A stretch of 64,000 bases of DNA. Origin: Nitrospira sp. (lineage in GTDB: Bacteria; Nitrospirota; Nitrospiria; Nitrospirales; Nitrospiraceae). Shown piece by piece: positions 8,911 to 60,118 of this stretch. Within the stretch, counting starts at the first letter, position 1. Every line of letters starts with the position of its first letter. The notes below the pieces were generated by a model. That model had not been told where the DNA came from. It was given only the letters and a program-made list of their open reading frames with translations, and ran no database searches. The position numbers were made by a program, and so were the translations under genes. The DNA lies in contig SWDM01000022.1 of NCBI GenBank assembly GCA_005116835.1, positions 1-64,000 of the forward strand. Direction: 5' to 3'.

Positions 8911-9038
8911 GCTGGTCTGTTTGGTTTGTTTTGTTCGTTTGGTTTATCTCGTTTGTTTGGTCGAACGGAACGTGCCGAAAGAACCAAATCAACCAGATGA
9001 ACAGAACAAACCAAACAAACCAGATCAACCAAATCAAC
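8911..9038. repeat. Dispersed palindrome family A (GTTTGGTTTGTTTT / CAAACAAACC arms)
   Basis: A T/G-rich arm of degenerate GTTTGGTTT units (8918-8960), a core GAACGGAAC-GTGCCGAAAG, and an A/C-rich arm (AACCAAATCAACCAGATGAA and further) to about 9038. It fills the gap between the adaptor and TolC genes. Six further loci in this window carry the same architecture. Confidence 0.8.
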
Positions 9039-13187: not shown

Positions 13188-13217
13188 TTGACAACCTTCT
13201 TCACGGGCTCCTAAAGT
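13188..13217 (+). promoter_or_regulatory. Promoter of the first cobalamin-riboswitch transcript
   Basis: TTGACA (13188-13193) and TAAAGT (13212-13217) with an 18-base spacer, placed directly before the riboswitch. Confidence 0.6.
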
Positions 13218-13221
13218 GCAG

Positions 13222-13441
13222 GCCACATTGTGACTCCTGGGTAAGGGAAGAGGGCGCAAATCCCTCGCGGTCCCGCCGCTGTAAATGGGGACGAAACCCG
13301 TAGAAGCCACTGTCTGAGGAAGCCGTCAGTCATCAGCGGTCAGCATTCAGCAGAAGCTGATGGCTGAAAGCTGAGAGCTGATCGCTTCTAAGATGGGAAG
13401 GCACGGGGAGTAGGGTGAACCATGAGCCAGAAAACCTGCCC
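13222..13441 (+). ncRNA. Cobalamin (B12) riboswitch 1, upstream of btuF-like gene
   Basis: Conserved blocks appear in order: GGGCGCAAATCCCTCGCGGT, CCCGCCGCTGTAA, GGGGACGAA, AAGCCACTG, then after a variable arm GGGAAGGC, GGGGAGTAGG, and GAACCATGAGCCAG-AAAACCTGCC. These are the class I cobalamin riboswitch core signatures. It would repress the downstream uptake unit when adenosylcobalamin is plentiful. The peripheral arm between AAGCCACTG and GGGAAGGC is lengthened by a dispersed palindrome (13322-13385). Confidence 0.9.
13322..13385. repeat. Palindrome family E inside riboswitch 1 (CAGCTTTCAGCCATCAG type)
   Basis: GTCAGTCATCAGCGGTCAGC and CATTCAGCAG face GCTGATGGCTGAAAGCTGAG and AGCTGAT. This extends one peripheral arm of the riboswitch and leaves the core blocks untouched. 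Confidence 0.7.
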
Positions 13442-13491
13442 GGAGAGTTGACCGATATTCCCTCGAGGGCTGGGGAATTGGCGAGGATGAG

Positions 13492-14544
13492 TTGCGGGTG
13501 CAATCCTCAGGGTCTTTCCAGGCCTTGGGGATTTTTTATTTGGGCACCGCTCCACAATATCGGCAACGGTGGGCCTGGCTGCTTATGGCAGCGTCGGTCC
13601 TTCTCGTTGCAACAGTAGCGTATGCGGATTCAGATGATGAGAAGTCAGCCGTGAAACGTCGGCATCAAGGTATTCTCACCGGCATGCCGTTCATGGCACA
13701 CGTCTCTGAGCGTGCCTATGTCGATGATGCCGGTCGACGGATGTATTTTGCCAAGCCTCCCGCGCGGATCGTCTCGCTCGCTCCCAGTATTACGGAAATA
13801 CTGTTTGCCCTGGAAGCGGGAGATCAGATCGTCGGTGTCACAGACTTTTGTGACTTCCCACTTGAGGCTGCGAAGAAGCCGAAGGTGGGCTACTCGAATC
13901 CAAACTTGGAATCCTTGGCGGCACTCCAGCCTGATTTGGTGGTGGCACCCAACGATTTTCTCAAGCCCGATGCCATCGCCAAGCTCGAACAGCTCAAGAT
14001 CCCCGTGTTTATCCTGGCCGATAAGAACGTCGAGGGGATCTTTGCCCACATCCAGACGCTCGGACGCATCGTGGGACGATCGTCCAAGGCTGATACGGTC
14101 GCAATGCAGCTTCGACAACAGGTAGCGACGATCCAAGAACGTATCCAAGGAATGCCTCCTGTTCGCATGCTGTATGTCTTGAATAGCCAACCCCTGATCA
14201 CCGTCGGTCCTGGAAGTTTTATCGACCAGCTGATCGGGATGGCTGGAGGGGTGAACATTGCCGCAAAAAGCGCAACTCCCTATCCACGACTCAGTTTGGA
14301 GTCCGTCCTCCAGGAGGATCCTGAAGTGTTGGTGTTTCCTGTCGGCAAGGCAGAAGGCATCTCTGAGAGCGAACAGCAGACCTGGCGCCAATGGACGACG
14401 ATGACAGCCGTAAAGCAAGGTCGGCTTCACCAGATCTCCGCCGATTGGCTCAACCGGCCTGGTCCGCGAATCGCCCAGGGGCTTGAATCGCTTGCCGCAA
14501 TTCTACATCCGCACAGTGTGCCAACCAGTCGGGCCGAACGATAG
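13492..14544 (+). CDS. btuF: Periplasmic corrinoid-binding protein of the B12 ABC importer (BtuF-like)
   Basis: Up to 350 residues from TTG 13492; ATG 13585 is an alternative inside a hydrophobic signal segment (WAWLLMAASVLLVATVAYA). The mature part has the class III substrate-binding pattern: PPARIVSLAPSITEILFALEAGDQIVGVTDFCDFPLEA, then LQPDLVVAPNDF, a long connecting helix (IFAHIQTLGRIVG) and ITVGPGSFIDQLIGMAGGVNIA. Length matches the family. It follows a cobalamin riboswitch and precedes permease and ATPase genes, so corrinoid is the likely ligand; an iron-chelate ligand is excluded mainly by this context. Confidence 0.85.
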   Translation: MRVQSSGSFQALGIFYLGTAPQYRQRWAWLLMAASVLLVATVAYADSDDEKSAVKRRHQGILTGMPFMAHVSERAYVDDAGRRMYFAKPPARIVSLAPSITEILFALEAGDQIVGVTDFCDFPLEAAKKPKVGYSNPNLESLAALQPDLVVAPNDFLKPDAIAKLEQLKIPVFILADKNVEGIFAHIQTLGRIVGRSSKADTVAMQLRQQVATIQERIQGMPPVRMLYVLNSQPLITVGPGSFIDQLIGMAGGVNIAAKSATPYPRLSLESVLQEDPEVLVFPVGKAEGISESEQQTWRQWTTMTAVKQGRLHQISADWLNRPGPRIAQGLESLAAILHPHSVPTSRAER

Positions 14545-14556
14545 GGCTCACGCCGT

Positions 14557-15633
14557 ATGGCAGATATTGCATCACCATGGACAGAGGCAGGACCGGTGTT
14601 GACCGTTCATCGATGGGTGGCGGTGATCGGTGGACTGATGCTGGCATGCATAGGCGTGCTGGTGCTTTGCCTGCAATTCGGCGCGACATCTGTTGGCCTA
14701 GGCAGCGTCGCATCGGCGATCATGCACATGGTACGCGGAGACTTGGCTGATTCACCAAGCCTGGAGACATCCGAGATTATCATGGTTCAGATTCGATTTC
14801 CCCGCGTCCTCATGGGTTTTCTTGTGGGCGCCGGATTGGCATCGGTCGGCGTGACGCTTCAAGCGTTGCTAAGAAATCCCTTGGCCGATCCCTACGTGTT
14901 AGGGGTGTCGAGCGGATCTGCTCTTGGCGTGTCACTGGCCATCCTGTTCGGAATCGGGTCAACCTTCATGCTGTTGCCGGTACTGCAGTTTTTTGGATTT
15001 GCCGGAGGCCTCCTCGCTCTTCTTCTGATCTATCGTTTCGCACAGTCAAAAGGTCGGCTTCCGATCCACAGCCTCTTGCTGGCAGGCGTCATTCTGAATG
15101 CAATTTTGACGGCGCTCATCATGTTCATTACCTCGATCATGGAGCCGAATCGATCGGCAGGATTAATGGCGTGGTTGATGGGCTCGCTCACGGCGCCTGG
15201 CTATCCGGCATTAGGTGTCTTTTCCATATATGTCGTTGTGGTCCTCCTGGTCCTGATGCACAAAGCGCAGCTCTTAAATGTACTGACCTTGGGAGAAGAA
15301 ACGGCCCGCTCACTCGGTGTGGAGACAGAGAGAGTGAAAAAACACCTCTTCGCTCTCACCGCATTGCTGACCGGCGCCATTGTATCGGTCAGCGGCATGA
15401 TTGGGTTCGTGGGTATGGTCGTTCCACATGCTGTGCGGCTGCTGATTGGATCGGATCACCGATTGTTGCTTCCTGCGTCGGCGTTAGTAGGAGGGATGTT
15501 TCTCGTCTTGGCCGATACAGTCGCCCGAACAGTGTTAGCTCCTGCCGAAATTCCTGTTGGGATTGTGACGGCCCTTGCCGGTGGGCCGTTCTTCCTCTAT
15601 CTGCTTCTGTGGCGGAAAGATCGGATGTTCTGA
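14557..15633 (+). CDS. btuC: FecCD-family ABC permease of the B12 importer (BtuC-like)
   Basis: 358 residues with about ten membrane helices. Family motifs are clear: IRFPRVLMGFLVGAGLASVG, LQALLRNPLADPYVLGVSSG, LGVETERVKKHLFALTALL and VSGMIGFVGMVVPHAVRLL. It is coded 12 bases after the binding-protein gene. It would form a homodimeric channel in the inner membrane driven by the ATPase encoded next, overlapping in function with classic BtuC. Confidence 0.88.
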   Translation: MADIASPWTEAGPVLTVHRWVAVIGGLMLACIGVLVLCLQFGATSVGLGSVASAIMHMVRGDLADSPSLETSEIIMVQIRFPRVLMGFLVGAGLASVGVTLQALLRNPLADPYVLGVSSGSALGVSLAILFGIGSTFMLLPVLQFFGFAGGLLALLLIYRFAQSKGRLPIHSLLLAGVILNAILTALIMFITSIMEPNRSAGLMAWLMGSLTAPGYPALGVFSIYVVVVLLVLMHKAQLLNVLTLGEETARSLGVETERVKKHLFALTALLTGAIVSVSGMIGFVGMVVPHAVRLLIGSDHRLLLPASALVGGMFLVLADTVARTVLAPAEIPVGIVTALAGGPFFLYLLLWRKDRMF

Positions 15634-15634
15634 G

Positions 15635-16504
15635 ATGACGATCGATACCGTAGAGTCAACGAGGTTCTGGTTGTCGCCAGATGGGTCTGCCATCGAAGTT
15701 GATGGGCTGTCGTTTCGTTATCAGAGGATGCATGGGCGAGGGCGGCAGTGGACGCTGGATCATCTCACGTTCCTTGTCGGTGCCGGGGAAATTCTTGGGA
15801 TCGTCGGGCCGAATGGGTCGGGTAAGTCTTCGCTGTTAAAGGTTCTGTCCGGGCTCTTGCCGATCGGTGAGGGAGACGTCCGATTGGGAGGTCTTTCGAT
15901 CCAGAAACGGACTCAGGCCGATATTGCGCGGGTAGTCGCGGTAGTCCCGCAGGAATATCAGCAAGTATTTCCGTTTACCGTGGCCGAGACAGTGCTGATG
16001 GGGCGCTTCCCACATCGGACCGCCAGGTGGTGGAGTATGGGGATCGGAGATGAGACAGCCGGCGATCTCGCTAGTGCGCATCAAGCCATGGTCGTTACCG
16101 ATGTCCTCTCACTGGCTGATCGTCTGGTGTCTGACTTATCCGGAGGCGAACGGCAGCGGGTCATGATTGCAAGAGCCTTGGCTCAAGAACCAAAGATTCT
16201 TCTGCTCGATGAGCCGACGGCATTTCTCGACATCAATCACCAGATCGAGATTTGCTCGCTCATAACTAGACTACGGGCAGAGCGCCGATTGACGGTGGTC
16301 TTGGTGTCGCACGATCTGAATGTCGCGAGTCAGTATTGCGATCGTGTGTTGATGCTCAAGGAAGGCGGGCTCTGCCGTATCGGTTCGCCGGACGAGACCA
16401 TTCGTCCGGATGTCCTCCGAATGGTCTACGGATGTGATGTGGTCGTGGATGCCCATCCCCAGACGGGCCGGCCGCGTGTAACTATGCCGATGAGCATGGT
16501 GTGA
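15635..16504 (+). CDS. btuD: ABC transporter ATP-binding protein of the B12 importer (BtuD-like)
   Basis: 289 residues from ATG 15635, one base after the permease stop; a longer frame from 15575 would overlap the permease and is not favoured. Walker A GPNGSGKS (58-65), signature LSGGERQRV (168-176), Walker B ILLLDEPTAFLD (188-199) and the switch His (VLVSHDLNVA) are all intact. It is cytoplasmic and energises the permease. The gene is followed after one base by the nitrilase-family gene. Confidence 0.88.
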   Translation: MTIDTVESTRFWLSPDGSAIEVDGLSFRYQRMHGRGRQWTLDHLTFLVGAGEILGIVGPNGSGKSSLLKVLSGLLPIGEGDVRLGGLSIQKRTQADIARVVAVVPQEYQQVFPFTVAETVLMGRFPHRTARWWSMGIGDETAGDLASAHQAMVVTDVLSLADRLVSDLSGGERQRVMIARALAQEPKILLLDEPTAFLDINHQIEICSLITRLRAERRLTVVLVSHDLNVASQYCDRVLMLKEGGLCRIGSPDETIRPDVLRMVYGCDVVVDAHPQTGRPRVTMPMSMV

Positions 16505-16505
16505 T

Positions 16506-17276
16506 ATGAAGATCGGCAGAATTGCGCTCCTGCATCTTGAGACGATTCCTGGAGCCGTTGAGCACAATCAACAGGTGATTGTCGAAGCGATCAAACAAGC
16601 CGCTTCAGGCGGTGCACAGTGGATCGTGACTCCTGAACTGGCCACATGCGGGCTCCAGTTCGCAAGGGTCATTGGAACCGACTGGATCGAGCCACAACCA
16701 GATGCATGGATGCATCGCCTCTGCCGACTGGTAAAAGATTTGAAGCGGACTCTGTTTCTTGGTTGTCCGGAACGGGACTCGGGGCGGCTGTACAATTCTG
16801 TCTTTGTGATCAATTCACGAGGCGAGGTCATTGGAAGGCATCGCAAGATCAATGTCAAAAGCGATTCTCTCTCATGGTCAAGCCCCGGAGAAGCTGTCGT
16901 GCCGCTCCAGTGTGATGGGCTGAAAGTGGGCCTCTTGGTGTGCGCCGATGCCTTTACGCCCGGTATCGCCGCCACCTTAAAATCTGGGGGCGCACAAATT
17001 CTTGTTTCTCCCTCTTCCTGGGGCCCTGGCCTCCATGGGCCGAACGGTGAATGGGAAGAGCGAACCCGTGAGACTGGGCTGCCGCTGATCGTGTGCAATA
17101 GAACCGGAGCCGAGAAGACACTCGATTTCTGGAAGGCTCAAAGTCTGGTAGTGAAGAATGGGAGACGCCTGCTTTCACATGCCTCTGAGCAATCTGCTGT
17201 GCTGACATTCGATTGGAACTTCACGACCATGACTCCTTTGTCCACGGTCTACCAAACGGAGTACCTGAAAACATGA
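16506..17276 (+). CDS. Carbon-nitrogen hydrolase (nitrilase superfamily) in the B12 uptake operon
   Basis: 256 residues. The catalytic triad of the superfamily is present: Glu44 in VTPELATCG, Lys114 in GRHRKINV, and Cys146 in VGLLVCADAF. Downstream GGAQILVSPSSWGPG and PLIVCNRTG complete the fold. Length matches amidase-type members. The ATG follows the ATPase stop by one base, so it belongs to the riboswitch-1 operon. Substrate is unknown; corrinoid side chains or the lower-ligand linker carry amide bonds, so a corrinoid amidase role can be proposed but is only inference. The gene is followed by a hairpin and the second riboswitch. Confidence 0.82.
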   Translation: MKIGRIALLHLETIPGAVEHNQQVIVEAIKQAASGGAQWIVTPELATCGLQFARVIGTDWIEPQPDAWMHRLCRLVKDLKRTLFLGCPERDSGRLYNSVFVINSRGEVIGRHRKINVKSDSLSWSSPGEAVVPLQCDGLKVGLLVCADAFTPGIAATLKSGGAQILVSPSSWGPGLHGPNGEWEERTRETGLPLIVCNRTGAEKTLDFWKAQSLVVKNGRRLLSHASEQSAVLTFDWNFTTMTPLSTVYQTEYLKT

Positions 17277-17278
17277 TT

Positions 17279-17308
17279 CTGTGAAGACCATACCATTGGT
17301 TTTCACAG
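17279..17308. terminator. Hairpin after the B12 uptake operon (possible terminator)
   Basis: CTGTGAA and ACCA pair with TGGT and TTCACAG in a nearly symmetrical stem-loop three bases after the stop codon. There is no long U tract, so factor-independent termination is uncertain. Confidence 0.4.
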
Positions 17309-17419
17309 CGGTAGGCCGTCCGTACAGATGCCAATGAACATGGTGTGAATTATAAGACAGCCCGGGCTATGTCCCCGGCCAGGCTGTGATGGAGAAGGGG
17401 GACGGTCAACTTTTTAGGA

Positions 17420-17661
17420 AAGAGTGTTTTGGAGAAGCGACGCGGGTGACGGGGAAGATGGTGCAAGTCCATCACGGTGCCGCCACTGTAAGCGGGGAGC
17501 ATTCTTCCAGATAAGCCACTGGTTCGGTGCGTGAAGCGTTGTACGTGAAGCGTGAAGCGAAGGCCTCGAAGGTTTTTGCGGGATACGCTTCATGATATAC
17601 GCGATACGTTTCAACTGGGAAGGCGGAAGAAGGCGACGATCCGCAAGTCAGGAGACCCATC
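17420..17661 (+). ncRNA. Cobalamin (B12) riboswitch 2, upstream of btuB
   Basis: Core blocks in order: GACGGGGAAGATGGTGCAAG, TCCATCACGGTGCCGCCACT, GTAAGCGGGGAGC, ATAAGCCACTGG, a variable arm, CTGGGAAGGCGG, GGCGACGATCCGCAAGTCAG, GAGACC. These match the class I cobalamin riboswitch. It sits about 45 bases before the TonB receptor gene and would control the whole second unit. Its variable arm also contains a dispersed palindrome (17527-17614). Confidence 0.9.
17527..17614. repeat. Palindrome family D inside riboswitch 2
   Basis: GTGCGTGAAGCGTTGTACGT and GAAGCGTGAAGCG face GGATACGCTTCATGATATAC and GCGATACGTTTCA. It occupies the same arm, between the AAGCCACTGG and GGGAAGGC blocks, that holds family E in riboswitch 1. 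Confidence 0.75.
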
Positions 17662-17707
17662 CCGCAGTTGATTCGACTCAACCCTTCGAGCACGAGGGAG
17701 GTTCGTC

Positions 17708-19768
17708 ATGACGTGGTTTATTCGTTTGTGTGGTGTGTGGTGGTGTCTATTTCCGCTGTTTGCACTGAGTTCTCCCGTCTATGCTGCCCCGGACATCGAA
17801 GTGGCTTCCGCTGACCAACAAGATGTCATCGAAACCCGCGAAGTTGTGGTCAGCGCGACAAAAACACCAATTCCAGTCAGTCAAGTCACAAGCGCGGTCG
17901 AGATTATCACTGGAGAGGAATTGGAGCGGAAAAAGATCAAGACCGTTATCGATGGATTGCGTCTTGCGCAGGGTGTGTTCGCAACCTCAAGTGGAGGTCC
18001 TGGCACGGAAGCTACTGTAAAAATGCGAGGAGCGTTTGCAAGACACACCTTAGTGTTGATCGACGGTGTAATCGTCAATAGTCCAACGACGGGTGCGTAC
18101 GACTTTTCAAATCTGACGGCGGAGAATATTGATCGTATCGAGATCCTTCGTGGTGCGCAAAGCATGCTGTACGGATCCGATGCCGTCGGAGGGGTCATCA
18201 ATATCTATACGAAAAAAGGGACCGGCACACCTACGGCAAGCACTTTCATTGAGTATGGTTCCTTTGCAAGCCTTCGTGAAGGTGGCTCTGCGTCTGGCTC
18301 AAAGGGTCCATTCGATTTTTCAGCATCGATATCCCGTTGGGACACAAGCAGTTTTTCGGCAATCAATTACCGACGTGGAGCGTTTGAGCGCGATGGATTT
18401 CATAACTGGCAGGGTTCTGGAAAGCTCGGCGTCTCACTACCGAATGACGGACGGTTAGAGTTCAATGCTCGATGGTATAACTCGGACGGCGGCTTTGACG
18501 GATTCGCGGACAGCGGTGCGCCGGCAGACGTGTTCGGTGCTAAACAATCGACTCGCAATCTGATTCTCAGCGGCACCTATGAGCAGCCACTGACATCGTG
18601 GTGGACCCAAAAACTGACTTTGGCACAGGCCAATGAACGATCACAAAGTGTAAGTGGAAATGCCGGCTACAATCTCAATACAAAGCAGTTTATCTCCGCC
18701 AACCCACAATGCTCCGGCCCACCTTTTTTGATCAATACCGATACATGCTTTACCCCATTTTCGAGTGATCTGAAAATCCTGAACCGTCGGCTGGAGTGGC
18801 AACATAATTTTCAAATTGGTAAGCCACTGCTGCTATCTGCCGGGTATCAATTTCGAGAAGAGCAGGGTGACGCTCCTGCATTCTACGGACCTGCACAGCC
18901 GAATAAGCTCATCTCGTCGCATGCCGGGTTTGCTCAGGCTCAGGTGAGTCTCTGGGACCGTCTAGATGTGACGGGTGGGGTCCGCCAGGATAGTTACAAC
19001 ATTTTTGGAGATGCCACAACCTATCGGGTTACGGCTGGTTATTTAGTGAAAGAAACCGGGACAAAGTTTCGAGGCAGCTATGCCACCGGGTTTAAGGCCC
19101 CGACCTTTAACGATCTGTTCTTTCAGCTTCCAGGCCAAGATTTTGGCAATCCCAACCTAAAGCCTGAGAAGAGCAAAAGTATGGATGTCGGGATCGATCA
19201 AAGCTTGTTCCAGGGGCGAGTACAACTCAACGCCGGTTATTTTTGGAACCGGTTTCAGGACTTAATCCAATTTGCATCGAGTTTCACTCCGTTATGTCCT
19301 GCGTCTACGCTCGGGTTCTGTCCTATCAATGTTGCGGAAGCGAAGTCCCAGGGGTGGGAGCTAGGATTCAAAGCAACGATCATGGAGGGATTGCAGATAC
19401 GAGGACAATACACCTATACGATGACTCGTGCGTTCGATACTCCCAGCAACCCATTAGGGGGAGATAAACGACTTCCTCGTTGGCCTGTCGATCAAGCCAC
19501 TCTTGGTCTCACATATCAACCAATTGAACCGTTGCGGATCAATGTGGATTACCGATTCGTAGGGGCCAGAAATAATAATTTGTCCAATACTCCCAATCAG
19601 CAACTAGGCTCTTTTAATGTGGTCAATGCCTCAGCGACGTACGACGTCACGAGAAACTGGCAAGTATTCGGTCGGGTTGACAATATTTTCAATGCTCGAT
19701 ACGAAGAAATTCTCTACTTCGGCACGCCGGTCCGTTCTGTATACGGCGGCGTGAAATTCACGTACTAA
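17708..19768 (+). CDS. btuB: TonB-dependent outer-membrane corrinoid receptor (BtuB-like)
   Basis: 686 residues with a signal peptide (1-27, ending SSPVYAAPD). TonB-box-like ETREVVVSATKTPIPV begins the plug, followed by VKMRGAFARHTLVLIDGVIV and IDRIEILRGAQSMLYGSDAV with GGVINIYTKKG. The remainder is a beta-barrel of alternating aromatic strands, including FRGSYATGFKAPTFNDLF and NPNLKPEKSKSMDVGID, ending in YGGVKFTY with a terminal aromatic as expected for barrel insertion. An insert with two Cys pairs (NPQCSGPPFLINTDTC; PLCPASTLGFC) may cap the loops. The riboswitch upstream and the B12 genes downstream support cobalamin as ligand. Confidence 0.9.
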   Translation: MTWFIRLCGVWWCLFPLFALSSPVYAAPDIEVASADQQDVIETREVVVSATKTPIPVSQVTSAVEIITGEELERKKIKTVIDGLRLAQGVFATSSGGPGTEATVKMRGAFARHTLVLIDGVIVNSPTTGAYDFSNLTAENIDRIEILRGAQSMLYGSDAVGGVINIYTKKGTGTPTASTFIEYGSFASLREGGSASGSKGPFDFSASISRWDTSSFSAINYRRGAFERDGFHNWQGSGKLGVSLPNDGRLEFNARWYNSDGGFDGFADSGAPADVFGAKQSTRNLILSGTYEQPLTSWWTQKLTLAQANERSQSVSGNAGYNLNTKQFISANPQCSGPPFLINTDTCFTPFSSDLKILNRRLEWQHNFQIGKPLLLSAGYQFREEQGDAPAFYGPAQPNKLISSHAGFAQAQVSLWDRLDVTGGVRQDSYNIFGDATTYRVTAGYLVKETGTKFRGSYATGFKAPTFNDLFFQLPGQDFGNPNLKPEKSKSMDVGIDQSLFQGRVQLNAGYFWNRFQDLIQFASSFTPLCPASTLGFCPINVAEAKSQGWELGFKATIMEGLQIRGQYTYTMTRAFDTPSNPLGGDKRLPRWPVDQATLGLTYQPIEPLRINVDYRFVGARNNNLSNTPNQQLGSFNVVNASATYDVTRNWQVFGRVDNIFNARYEEILYFGTPVRSVYGGVKFTY

Positions 19769-55943: not shown

Positions 55944-56032
55944 GTTGGTTTATTTCGTTTGTTTGGTTTGTTTTGTTTTTTTGGTTGAACGAAACTAACC
56001 AAATGAACCAAATCAACAAAACAAACCCAATA
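55944..56032. repeat. Dispersed palindrome family A
   Basis: GGTTTATTTCGTTTGTTTGG, then TTTGTTTTGTTTTTTTGG, core TTGAACGAAACTAACCAAAT, then GAACCAAATCAACAAAACAA. Lies between convergent genes. Confidence 0.8.
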
Positions 56033-57178: not shown

Positions 57179-60022
57179 ATGGACAATCTTTCAACTATGA
57201 CTGCACCAACACTCATTCTGCCTGAACGTTCCCGCGCTATCGCTTCGGATCTCCGAGCTGCCATCGGCGTCGACAAGGTCAAAGACGACTATTCAACGCT
57301 CACTGCCTATGCGGTGGATGCGAGTATCTATCGGATGATGCCGAAGGCGGTCGTCCTGGTGGAGTCCGAGCAGGACATCGCAGCCACGGTGCAGTATGCC
57401 GTACAGCGGGGCATCCCTCTGACGCCGCGCGCGGCCGGGACGAATTTGACCGGCTCGGCAGTCGGGTCTGGGATTATCCTGGACGTCTCACGTTTGAATC
57501 GGTTGCTGGAGTTGAATCGGGAAGAGCGATGGGCTCGGGTGCAGCCGGGGATCGTGCTGGCGGAATTAAATAAGCAGTTGGGACGGGATGGACTCCTCTT
57601 CGGTCCCGATCCTTCCAGCGGCGATATGTGCAAGCTCGGCGGGATGTTGGCGAACAACTCATCCGGTCCCCATACGCTACGGTACGGTGCCGTCAAAGAC
57701 AATGTGGAGGCCCTCCGGGTCTGCCTGCAATCCGGCGAGTGGCTGGATGCCAAGGCCTATGGCCTGGACGATCCGATCTGTCTCAATCTACTCAAAGAAA
57801 TAAAGCCGCTTAGGGATTTGCAGTTGCTGCTGCAAGACAATGCCGCGTTGATTGGAGCGAAACGTCCGACTGTCAGTAAAAACAGCTGCGGCTATAATCT
57901 CTTCGGCCTTGCCGATGGGTTGGCCCGAGGATGCTTCGACCTTCCTAAGCTCTTTGTCGGGAGCGAGGGGACGCTCGGCCTCTTCAGCGAAGCGACAATT
58001 CGACTGGTTGAGAAACCCCGCGCCACCCTCACGGCGCTCATCCATTTTCACCGGTTGGAAGATGTGGGTGATGCGGTGCCCAAGCTATTGGAGTTGAATC
58101 CGAGCGCGTTGGAAGTGATGGATGCTAATACGCTGAATTTGATTGGGCGGGCGAAACACGGTATCCCGATCGATGCAGCAGCCACCCTTCTCGTGGAATT
58201 GGATGCGGACGGTGTTCAGACCGATCTTCGCGAGCAGGCAGAGCGTATGACCGGAATCTGCAGGCGGTACCGTCTTACCTCTGATCCTGTCATTGCCTTC
58301 GACCCAGCGCAGCGGGATCAATTGTGGAAGGCCCGCAAGGCGCTCTATCCCACGCTCTATCGATTCGACCCCAAGAAGAAGCCCATCAACTTCGTGGACG
58401 ACGTGGTGGTGCCGGCAGGGCGGATCAGCGAACTCATTCGGTATCTCGAAGAATTCTTCACCGGGCAACATGTGCCTGTCGCGATTTTCGGCCATATCGG
58501 AAATGGGAATGCCCACATCATTCCCTTGCTCGACGTGAACGATCCAGGAGATTTTCAGAAGATGGTGCAGGGCTATCACGAGATCCACCAAACCGTTTTG
58601 AGCCGCTTCGGCGGCTCGATCTGCGGGGAGCATGGGGATGGCCGGGTACGAGCTGAATATGTGAAGACCATGTTCGGCCCGGAACTCTACGACCTGTTCG
58701 TGCAGGTCAAGCAGAGCTTTGATCCCACTGGGATGCTCAACCCAGGGATCAAGATCAGCGACAAGCCCTTCACGGACCATATCGATTATGAGCGGCTCTC
58801 GAAACCCTGCGCGACTTGCGCCAAGTGCAATGCCGTCTGCCCGGTCTACGATGTCTTTCAATCAGAAGATATGAGTTCACGGGGCTGGTTCGAGATCGTC
58901 ACGGACAAGAACTATAGCTACCTCAATTCGAAGCGAGTGGTGGAGGCCTGTCTCAACTGTAAATCCTGTCGGACTGCCTGTCCTGCCGGCGTCGATGTGT
59001 CCCAGCTCATTCTGGACCGTCGCGCTGAGCAGCCCAATGCCACAGCAGGTGTCATCTTTAAATTCCACGCCCAGACAGAGAAGTTTGAGAGGTTCTTAAA
59101 GGTATTAGCGAGGTATCAATCGATATGGGATCGGCCTTTCATCCGGCGCGTGATCGACCGTCTCACACGACCATTCATGCGTGGCCTGGCGGAGTCGGCC
59201 AAATTATCCCCTCAGTTGATATTGCCACGACTTGCCCCGCGTCATCTCAGAGACCGCTATCCCGAACTGATTCCCCAGGCCAAGCAAACGGCTCGTTCCC
59301 CGGTGGCCTATTTCCACGGCTGCGCGGCCAACTACTTCAACGATGGGGTGGGGGATGCCGTGATCGCCGTGTTGCGGAAACATGGAGTCGAGCCGGATCT
59401 GCCGCCGCAACGCTGTTCCGGGACGCCGATCGAAACCTACGGGCATCGGGAGTTGGCCAAAGAAGGGGCGAGGGTTAATCTCGCATCTATGGCAACATAC
59501 GAAAAGGTGGTAACCGGCTGCGCCTCCTGCACCCTCATGCTGAAGGACTATCCCACCCTATTTGCCGGTGAGCCGGAGCAAGCGGCGGCCCAGGCCCTGG
59601 CCAAACGAGTCACACATATTTCGGAGTTCGTATCCCAATCGCCGGTGAAACCGGCCATGGCCAGTCAGCAATCCACGAAGTGCAAGGTGGCCTACCATTC
59701 CTCTTGCCACCTGCGGGCTGCGGGAGTGACCAAAGAACCTCGTGCGGTTCTTGCCGCTCTGCCCGGCGTCGAGTATGTGGAGATGCAAGACGCGGATCGT
59801 TGCGCCGGCGGAGCGGGCACCTATCTCGTGAAGGATTTCGACACGTCTCAGCGTATTGTCGAGCGTAAACGCCGGGCTGTCGAACAGAGCGGCGCAGAGG
59901 TCGTGGCGACGAGTTGCCCTGCCTGCATGATCCAATTACGCACGGGGTTGCAAGGCACAGCGGAGGTTAAGCACGTAGCCCAACTGCTTCAAGAGGCCTA
60001 TGAGGCGGCAGATAGGTTGTAG
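57179..60022 (+). CDS. FAD-binding and Fe-S-binding oxidoreductase (glycolate/D-lactate dehydrogenase-like fusion)
   Basis: 947 residues. The N-terminal half is a GlcD-type FAD domain: PRAAGTNLTGSAVGSGIILD, GMLANNSSGPHTLRYGAVKD, HGDGRVRAEYVK. Two Fe-S clusters follow, with C544-x2-C-x2-C-x3-C (CATCAKCNAVCPVYD) and C591-x2-C-x2-C-x3-C (CLNCKSCRTACPAGVDV). The C-terminus has two CCG-type cysteine domains (VAYFHGCAANYFNDG, YHSSCHLRAAG, ATSCPACMIQLRTG). The fusion joins what GlcD/GlcE and GlcF do in separate chains: oxidation of a 2-hydroxyacid with electrons passed to the quinone pool. Exact substrate is open. ATG 57179 or ATG 57197. Confidence 0.88.
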   Translation: MDNLSTMTAPTLILPERSRAIASDLRAAIGVDKVKDDYSTLTAYAVDASIYRMMPKAVVLVESEQDIAATVQYAVQRGIPLTPRAAGTNLTGSAVGSGIILDVSRLNRLLELNREERWARVQPGIVLAELNKQLGRDGLLFGPDPSSGDMCKLGGMLANNSSGPHTLRYGAVKDNVEALRVCLQSGEWLDAKAYGLDDPICLNLLKEIKPLRDLQLLLQDNAALIGAKRPTVSKNSCGYNLFGLADGLARGCFDLPKLFVGSEGTLGLFSEATIRLVEKPRATLTALIHFHRLEDVGDAVPKLLELNPSALEVMDANTLNLIGRAKHGIPIDAAATLLVELDADGVQTDLREQAERMTGICRRYRLTSDPVIAFDPAQRDQLWKARKALYPTLYRFDPKKKPINFVDDVVVPAGRISELIRYLEEFFTGQHVPVAIFGHIGNGNAHIIPLLDVNDPGDFQKMVQGYHEIHQTVLSRFGGSICGEHGDGRVRAEYVKTMFGPELYDLFVQVKQSFDPTGMLNPGIKISDKPFTDHIDYERLSKPCATCAKCNAVCPVYDVFQSEDMSSRGWFEIVTDKNYSYLNSKRVVEACLNCKSCRTACPAGVDVSQLILDRRAEQPNATAGVIFKFHAQTEKFERFLKVLARYQSIWDRPFIRRVIDRLTRPFMRGLAESAKLSPQLILPRLAPRHLRDRYPELIPQAKQTARSPVAYFHGCAANYFNDGVGDAVIAVLRKHGVEPDLPPQRCSGTPIETYGHRELAKEGARVNLASMATYEKVVTGCASCTLMLKDYPTLFAGEPEQAAAQALAKRVTHISEFVSQSPVKPAMASQQSTKCKVAYHSSCHLRAAGVTKEPRAVLAALPGVEYVEMQDADRCAGGAGTYLVKDFDTSQRIVERKRRAVEQSGAEVVATSCPACMIQLRTGLQGTAEVKHVAQLLQEAYEAADRL

Positions 60023-60024
60023 GT

Positions 60025-60118
60025 CTATTTGGTTTATTTGGTTTGTTTGGTCGAGCGAACTCAACCGGATGAACCAAAGCAACCAAACAAACAAGACAAA
60101 CTAAATAAACCAAACAAC
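60025..60118. repeat. Dispersed palindrome family A
   Basis: CTATTTGGTTTATTTGGTTT, core GTCGAGCGAACTCAACCGGA, then GAACCAAAGCAACCAAACAA. It begins three bases after the oxidoreductase stop and ends about ten before the next start. Confidence 0.8.

Follow-up and report, generated by a model that had tools for sequence, protein, structure and literature searches.

Heptamer palindromes of the host genome occupy one peripheral arm of cobalamin riboswitches in Nitrospira and in other phyla

The window analyzed here, a 64,000-nt stretch of a Nitrospira sp. genome, carries exactly two Rfam cobalamin riboswitches, both on the + strand, and these are also the only two in the entire genome. Matches to RF00174 (Cobalamin; cmscan) were obtained at 13188-13457 (89.5 bits) and 17408-17678 (84.4 bits), against a gathering score of 31.5, and both span the whole model (positions 1-189). 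Riboswitch 1 is the leader of a btuFCD-like operon with Peripla_BP_2, FecCD and ABC_tran genes, closed by a carbon-nitrogen hydrolase, while riboswitch 2 leads a btuB-like TonB-dependent receptor gene (17708-19768) accompanied by a CobB/CbiA-type gene; both thus have the location that characterizes RF00174, upstream of B12 transport/synthesis genes. Because an intrinsic-terminator-like hairpin followed by a T-run, the candidate expression platform, lies at 13502-13533 (+), riboswitch 1 plausibly acts as a transcriptional OFF switch, judging from its sequence. A promoter-like pair (TTGACA ... TAAAGT, 13188-13217), apparently conserved in relatives, overlaps the Rfam 5' end of riboswitch 1, and the P1/P2 part of that match may be promoter DNA.

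Relative to the model, the riboswitches have insertions of 74 nt (riboswitch 1) and 86 nt (riboswitch 2), each in the loop of the CCACUG...GGGAAGG hairpin. Measured between CCACTG and GGGAAGGC, the arm is 82 nt long in riboswitch 1 and 95 nt in riboswitch 2, compared to the usual ~15. In riboswitch 1, the arm base consists of GCCACTG (13306-13312) and GGGAAGGC (13395-13402) and encloses a long arm at 13313-13394; in riboswitch 2, the same two strands (17515-17521 and 17617-17624) enclose a long arm at 17522-17616, all on the + strand. The first arm is a family E heptamer palindrome of GTCAGCN/AGCTGAN units (CAGTCAT-CAGCGGT-CAGCATT-CAGC ... AGCTGAT-GGCTGAA-AGCTGAG-AGCTGAT-CGC) predicted to form one hairpin of -45.6 kcal/mol, and the second is a family D palindrome, in which GTGAAGC units stand opposite GATACGC/GCTTCAC-like units in one predicted hairpin of -41.7 kcal/mol. 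A sequence-only reading of this DNA had placed palindromes of two different families in the same peripheral arm of both riboswitches, and the Rfam covariance model agrees, setting both repeats inside rather than outside the riboswitch. The arm is the apical hairpin of the P6 extension of a class-I-type cobalamin aptamer, an extension that has been described with a second junction of P7, P8, P10 and P11 (PMC11260477).

Families E and D are each multi-copy in the genome, with ~30-35 further dispersed places apiece (E<0.05), and they belong to a larger population of such elements. Among 464 kb of this genome surveyed, 59 palindromes scored ≥13, 49 of them intergenic, versus 0 in a 200-kb shuffle. 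Intergenic short-lag repeats peak at lags 7, 9 and 14, and the units comprise many heptamer variants together with a nonamer class (TTTGGTTTG). Dispersed palindromes of 9-nt, TTTGGTTTG-like units are present in the window at 8912-9023, 55962-56030 and 60022-60111, the heptamer class being equally common in the 464-kb sample. In genome G000, a family E palindrome (C16:211296-211358) is located ~60 nt downstream of the aptamer of the sole TPP riboswitch of that genome (C16:211417-211519, minus strand), outside the aptamer. No carrier enzyme was identified: the three Y1 transposase (Y1_Tnp) genes of this genome had no palindrome of score ≥28 within the surrounding 2.3-3.3 kb, and mobilization by RAYT was accordingly rejected.

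The same arm was compared across the genus in 32 Nitrospira genomes, which yielded 56 arms of two riboswitch types (btuF-side, rs1, and btuB-side, rs2). Long arms accounted for 36 of the 56 (64% occupancy) and short arms for 20, and lengths were bimodal, at either 11-15 nt or 81-103 nt with none between 15 and 81 nt, the exception being one 201-nt arm with an N run. Short arms terminate in strong small hairpins (e.g., GUGC-UUCG-GCAC). In riboswitch 2 of G008 (L087), an N run interrupts the long arm, a gap of the kind expected when hairpin repeats disrupt assembly. The flanking segments are near constant in both types (22-25 nt before the arm and 23-24 nt after it), and aptamer length minus arm was 153-193 nt in all matched cases except one partial match; no other part of the aptamer has therefore taken such an insert, in keeping with the earlier suggestion that only this site is open.

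Long arms in the genus belong to at least five sequence families (GTGATNA, CGTTAAA, GTCAATN, GTGAAGC and GTCAGCN/AGCTGAN). Among 41 long arms of the genus and family, 39 had a lag-7 periodicity of z≥3, none reached this value at lags 4-6 or 8-13, and lag 14 was the only other lag to do so. One unbranched hairpin was likewise predicted for 39 of the 41, with heptamer units pairing as helices of 4-5 bp separated by internal loops of 2-3 nt. For GTGATNA, the one family in which arm family was compared with host copy number, dispersed GTGATNAGTGATNA was commoner in genomes with GTGATNA arms (median 10 vs 1; Mann-Whitney p=2e-4).

Other structured RNAs of the same genomes are without inserts: RNase P RNA measured 426-428 nt in nearly all copies and was never longer, complete tmRNA copies measured 346-350 nt, and every TPP riboswitch match measured 103-104 nt, so structured RNA has not been invaded across the board. 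A further class of cobalamin riboswitch (12-13-nt arm and 39-41-nt second segment) had short arms in all cases seen, in a sample biased to high-scoring, short matches.

The sequence-only reading also held that the arm tolerates length change and that the core is spared, which is what folding calculations predict. RNAs were folded in silico carrying the native arm, a 15-nt replacement or a shuffled arm, and the predicted pairing of the core was scored. In the window pair, Rfam core pairs had a mean probability of 0.434/0.423 (native) and 0.433/0.422 (short), which fell to ~0.27 when the insert was shuffled and to 0.26 when it was random genomic sequence, although some of the P1/P2 pairs counted may lack transcription given the promoter-like pair at 13188-13217. 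The result was the same for 39 long-arm riboswitches folded as RNAs starting nearer the core, in which native inserts retained a median of 0.976 (mean 0.88) of the core ensemble seen with short arms, compared to 0.59 for shuffled ones. Native outperformed shuffled inserts in silico in 35 of the 39, the four in which they did no better being G010 rs1, G013 rs1, G015 rs2 and G027 rs1. Self-complementarity is therefore predicted to act as insulation.

Independent arrival of the two families at one structural position had been proposed as well, and this stood in part: the arm has been occupied recurrently and independently at the scale of the genus and of phyla, but the two arms in the window did not arrive recently. 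Arms at the corresponding riboswitch of other Nitrospira (L278, L357, G065) share 83-86% identity with the E arm, whereas the dispersed home copies compared reach ≤76%, and the D arm is 86% identical to the G018 arm vs ≤71% to home copies. Since they are closer to arms of other species than to home copies, both look like old, inherited residents here. On an operon tree of 27 tips, arm state changed at least 11 times in rs1 and at least 13 times in rs2, counts that are approximate because the tree has long branches and operons may have been transferred. Close relatives can differ clearly, as where G008 (both arms long) sits beside G009 (both short). A palindrome occupied the orthologous place in 9 of 81 comparisons (11%) for dispersed copies versus 56 of 80 (70%) for arms, for each switch; these comparisons are not independent, although the contrast is large, and benefit, repeated refilling, or a trap (the leader being harmed by imprecise loss) could each account for it. 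An intergenic spot ~1-3.5 kb upstream of riboswitch 1 repeatedly carries palindromes in several relatives (G002, G003, G019, G028) and stands out as the chief exception to the rapid turnover seen for dispersed copies.

Repeats of other families also fill the arm beyond the family, as shown by a pattern scan for a 60-90 nt arm in 84,980 species. Among the matches listed were 96 genuine long arms, 40 of which had lag-7 periodicity (Bacteroidota 17/38, Nitrospirota 15/22, Ignavibacteriota 2/3, Thermodesulfobacteriota 2/5, Myxococcota 2/5, Pseudomonadota 1/4, unplaced 1/3); lag 8 was found in 8 arms, mostly of Dyadobacter, and the remaining lags in 0-4 arms each, lag 14 excepted. As a control, 80-mers drawn at random from these loci reached z7≥3 in 0.6% of cases. 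Different phyla use unrelated heptamers (e.g., CAGTTAT in Alkalitalea, CAATTGA in Marinilabilia and GAATGCA in Ignavibacteriales), and host-genome dispersal was found for every arm family tested, CAGTNNTCAGTNNTCAG having 31 occurrences in Alkalitalea and 37 in SCN18_30_10_14_R2_B_71_11 (reversed control, 0). Long arms are not always repeats, since those of Bacillota (0/11 with lag 7 among the matches listed) resemble ordinary long hairpins. Four Dyadobacter arms (L250, L275, L276, L281) are palindromes of 8-nt (4+4) units and not heptamers. The arms of L344, L345 and L341 hold self-pairing sequences without 7-nt units (e.g., CTTCGACAAGCTCAGG in L344), and the arm may for this reason be a general site for host palindromic repeats.

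These results establish the repeat-filled riboswitch arm as a real, recurrent and unusually clear case, which we consider probably best read as resident heptamer repeats lengthening the P6-extension hairpin in a tolerated, self-insulating way. This reading draws together the position, identity and periodicity of the insert, the dispersal of its families, its restriction to the arm, its in silico insulation and its longer persistence. The genome holds hundreds of dispersed imperfect palindromes (~60-120 nt) whose tandem, degenerate short units are mostly heptamers or nonamers; heptamer elements would repeatedly insert into the apical hairpin of the P6 extension in class-I-type cobalamin riboswitches or take its place, by a route that we infer. 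As each heptamer contributes 4-5 paired and 2-3 internal-loop bases, the insert would fold on itself as one long hairpin that extends the existing peripheral helix, so that the aptamer core still folds and the variant survives. Inserts elsewhere in the aptamer, or inserts lacking self-complementarity, would be expected to break it. Once resident, an element persists far longer than the copies that lie in free intergenic DNA, probably because imprecise loss would damage an important leader, and the ligand response would be left unchanged. Tolerance alone fails to predict 64% occupancy, however, as the arm holds repeats far more often than neutral intergenic DNA does; a target preference, a trap against deletion or some benefit must therefore contribute as well.

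Such a target preference is the core of one alternative, possible though doubtful, in which the elements favor small hairpin loops (through a transposase or template switching on folded single-stranded DNA), the arm is a hot target and selection clears harmful cases. The strong small hairpins that end the short arms (GUGC-UUCG-GCAC) suit this explanation, and TnpA-REP may mobilize REP-type palindromes (PMC8266576). Against it, the small hairpins of RNase P RNA, tmRNA and TPP riboswitches are untouched (although constraint there may be tighter), no flanking target duplication was recognized, and the entire distal stem differs between long and short arms, which simple loop insertion would not bring about. 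Growth of the palindromes in place from the native hairpin, by slippage or template switching and with a convergent likeness to the dispersed elements, would draw on the tendency of degenerate tandem units to slip and on the slight arm-length differences within a family. We rejected it as very improbable because the genus has no intermediate lengths (none between 15 and 81 nt); moreover, arms match dispersed copies of their own genome at 70-76% over their whole length, which contradicts convergence, and GTGATNA arms track the GTGATNA count of the host genome. The chance that repeats were misassembled or mis-binned into the riboswitch is negligible. Most of the genomes are draft assemblies and the riboswitch 2 arm of G008 contains an N run, but closed or isolate genomes carry the arms too (N. 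defluvii chromosome FP929003, Marinilabilia, Anaerophaga, Alkalitalea, Dyadobacter), always at the same arm base in the named genomes. The concern that relatives with normal arms would expose an assembly error is likewise met, as such relatives coexist with independent assemblies that bear long arms, and misassembly is excluded on that account.

The earlier suggestion that the extra stem is useful deserves separate weighing. Here the stem would tune the switch, e.g., because it slows polymerase, guides folding during transcription, shields the leader RNA or docks onto a different part, and selection would recruit whatever palindrome the host has. The 64% occupancy, the persistence of 70% vs 11%, the fact that one family has repeatedly taken the place of another instead of simply being lost, and the independent filling of the same arm in several phyla all speak for this. 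Nonetheless, we regard it as unlikely: short arms are common, which argues against the stem being necessary, and they adjoin long ones on the tree (G009 vs G008), which points to a dispensable stem. In 11 E-type arms, paired columns were less variable than internal-loop columns (0.199 vs 0.479, p=1.5e-5), but dispersed copies have the same asymmetry (paired 0.096 vs internal-loop 0.524), so that it is a property of the element, and its interpretation as RNA-level selection was rejected. Two-sided changes (covariation) in family E arms were also no more frequent than in shuffles. A more specific version, in which selection made this apical hairpin a docking site and several phyla independently recruited their own heptamer palindromes to it because a long helical extension improves or tunes B12 switching, seems quite unlikely; if true, host repeats would be interchangeable structural parts of an RNA sensor.

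With many unrelated inserts at one position, and with close relatives with and without inserts available (e.g., G008 and G009), the arm offers a large natural experiment on how an RNA sensor tolerates or uses repeats. It also exposes under-described dispersed heptamer palindromes in distant phyla, and suggests how RNA genes can accommodate self-complementary repeats but not other inserts.

Our search of the open-access literature, whose coverage is incomplete, returned no report of such repeats in a riboswitch. The host RNAs share their core, B12 box, P6 extension and controlled genes (btuFCD-like, TonB receptor) with other class-I-type members of RF00174, but the apical hairpin of the P6 extension is ~15 nt there and, by way of the repeat element, 81-103 nt here. 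High-copy dispersed intergenic palindromes are also typical of REP/REPIN elements with TnpA-REP (RAYT) (PMC2817692, PMC3116915, PMC8266576, PMC3733652); the last of these gives REP palindromes as 20-40 bp, mostly with GTAG or CGTC tags, whereas the genus arms are longer (81-103 nt) and heptamer-phased, and no Y1 transposase was found associated with the elements here. In Geobacter metallireducens, an element of four tandem heptanucleotides occurs at 49 places (PMC2700814). In heterocyst-forming cyanobacteria, STRR heptamers are reported within the gene for RNase P RNA (Vioque 1997, cited in PMC2858038), likewise a case of dispersed genomic short tandem repeats in a structured RNA; in Nitrospira, by contrast, RNase P RNA is insert-free and the cobalamin riboswitch is invaded instead. 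The features of STRR/heptanucleotide arms, namely 7-nt periodicity, units pairing into a peripheral hairpin and dispersal of the repeat in the genome, were all found in the arms described here. The closest known case is P6b of the cyanobacterial tRNA-Leu (UAA) group I intron, in which degenerate heptanucleotide repeats of two classes pair into a hairpin (PMC3488679, citing Costa et al. 2002). Both have pairing degenerate heptamers in a peripheral, length-variable stem, with different repeat classes at one place, but the host RNA there is a Nostoc intron rather than a riboswitch, and two repeat classes are described for it, whereas here a single bacterial family has at least five and other phyla have unrelated ones.
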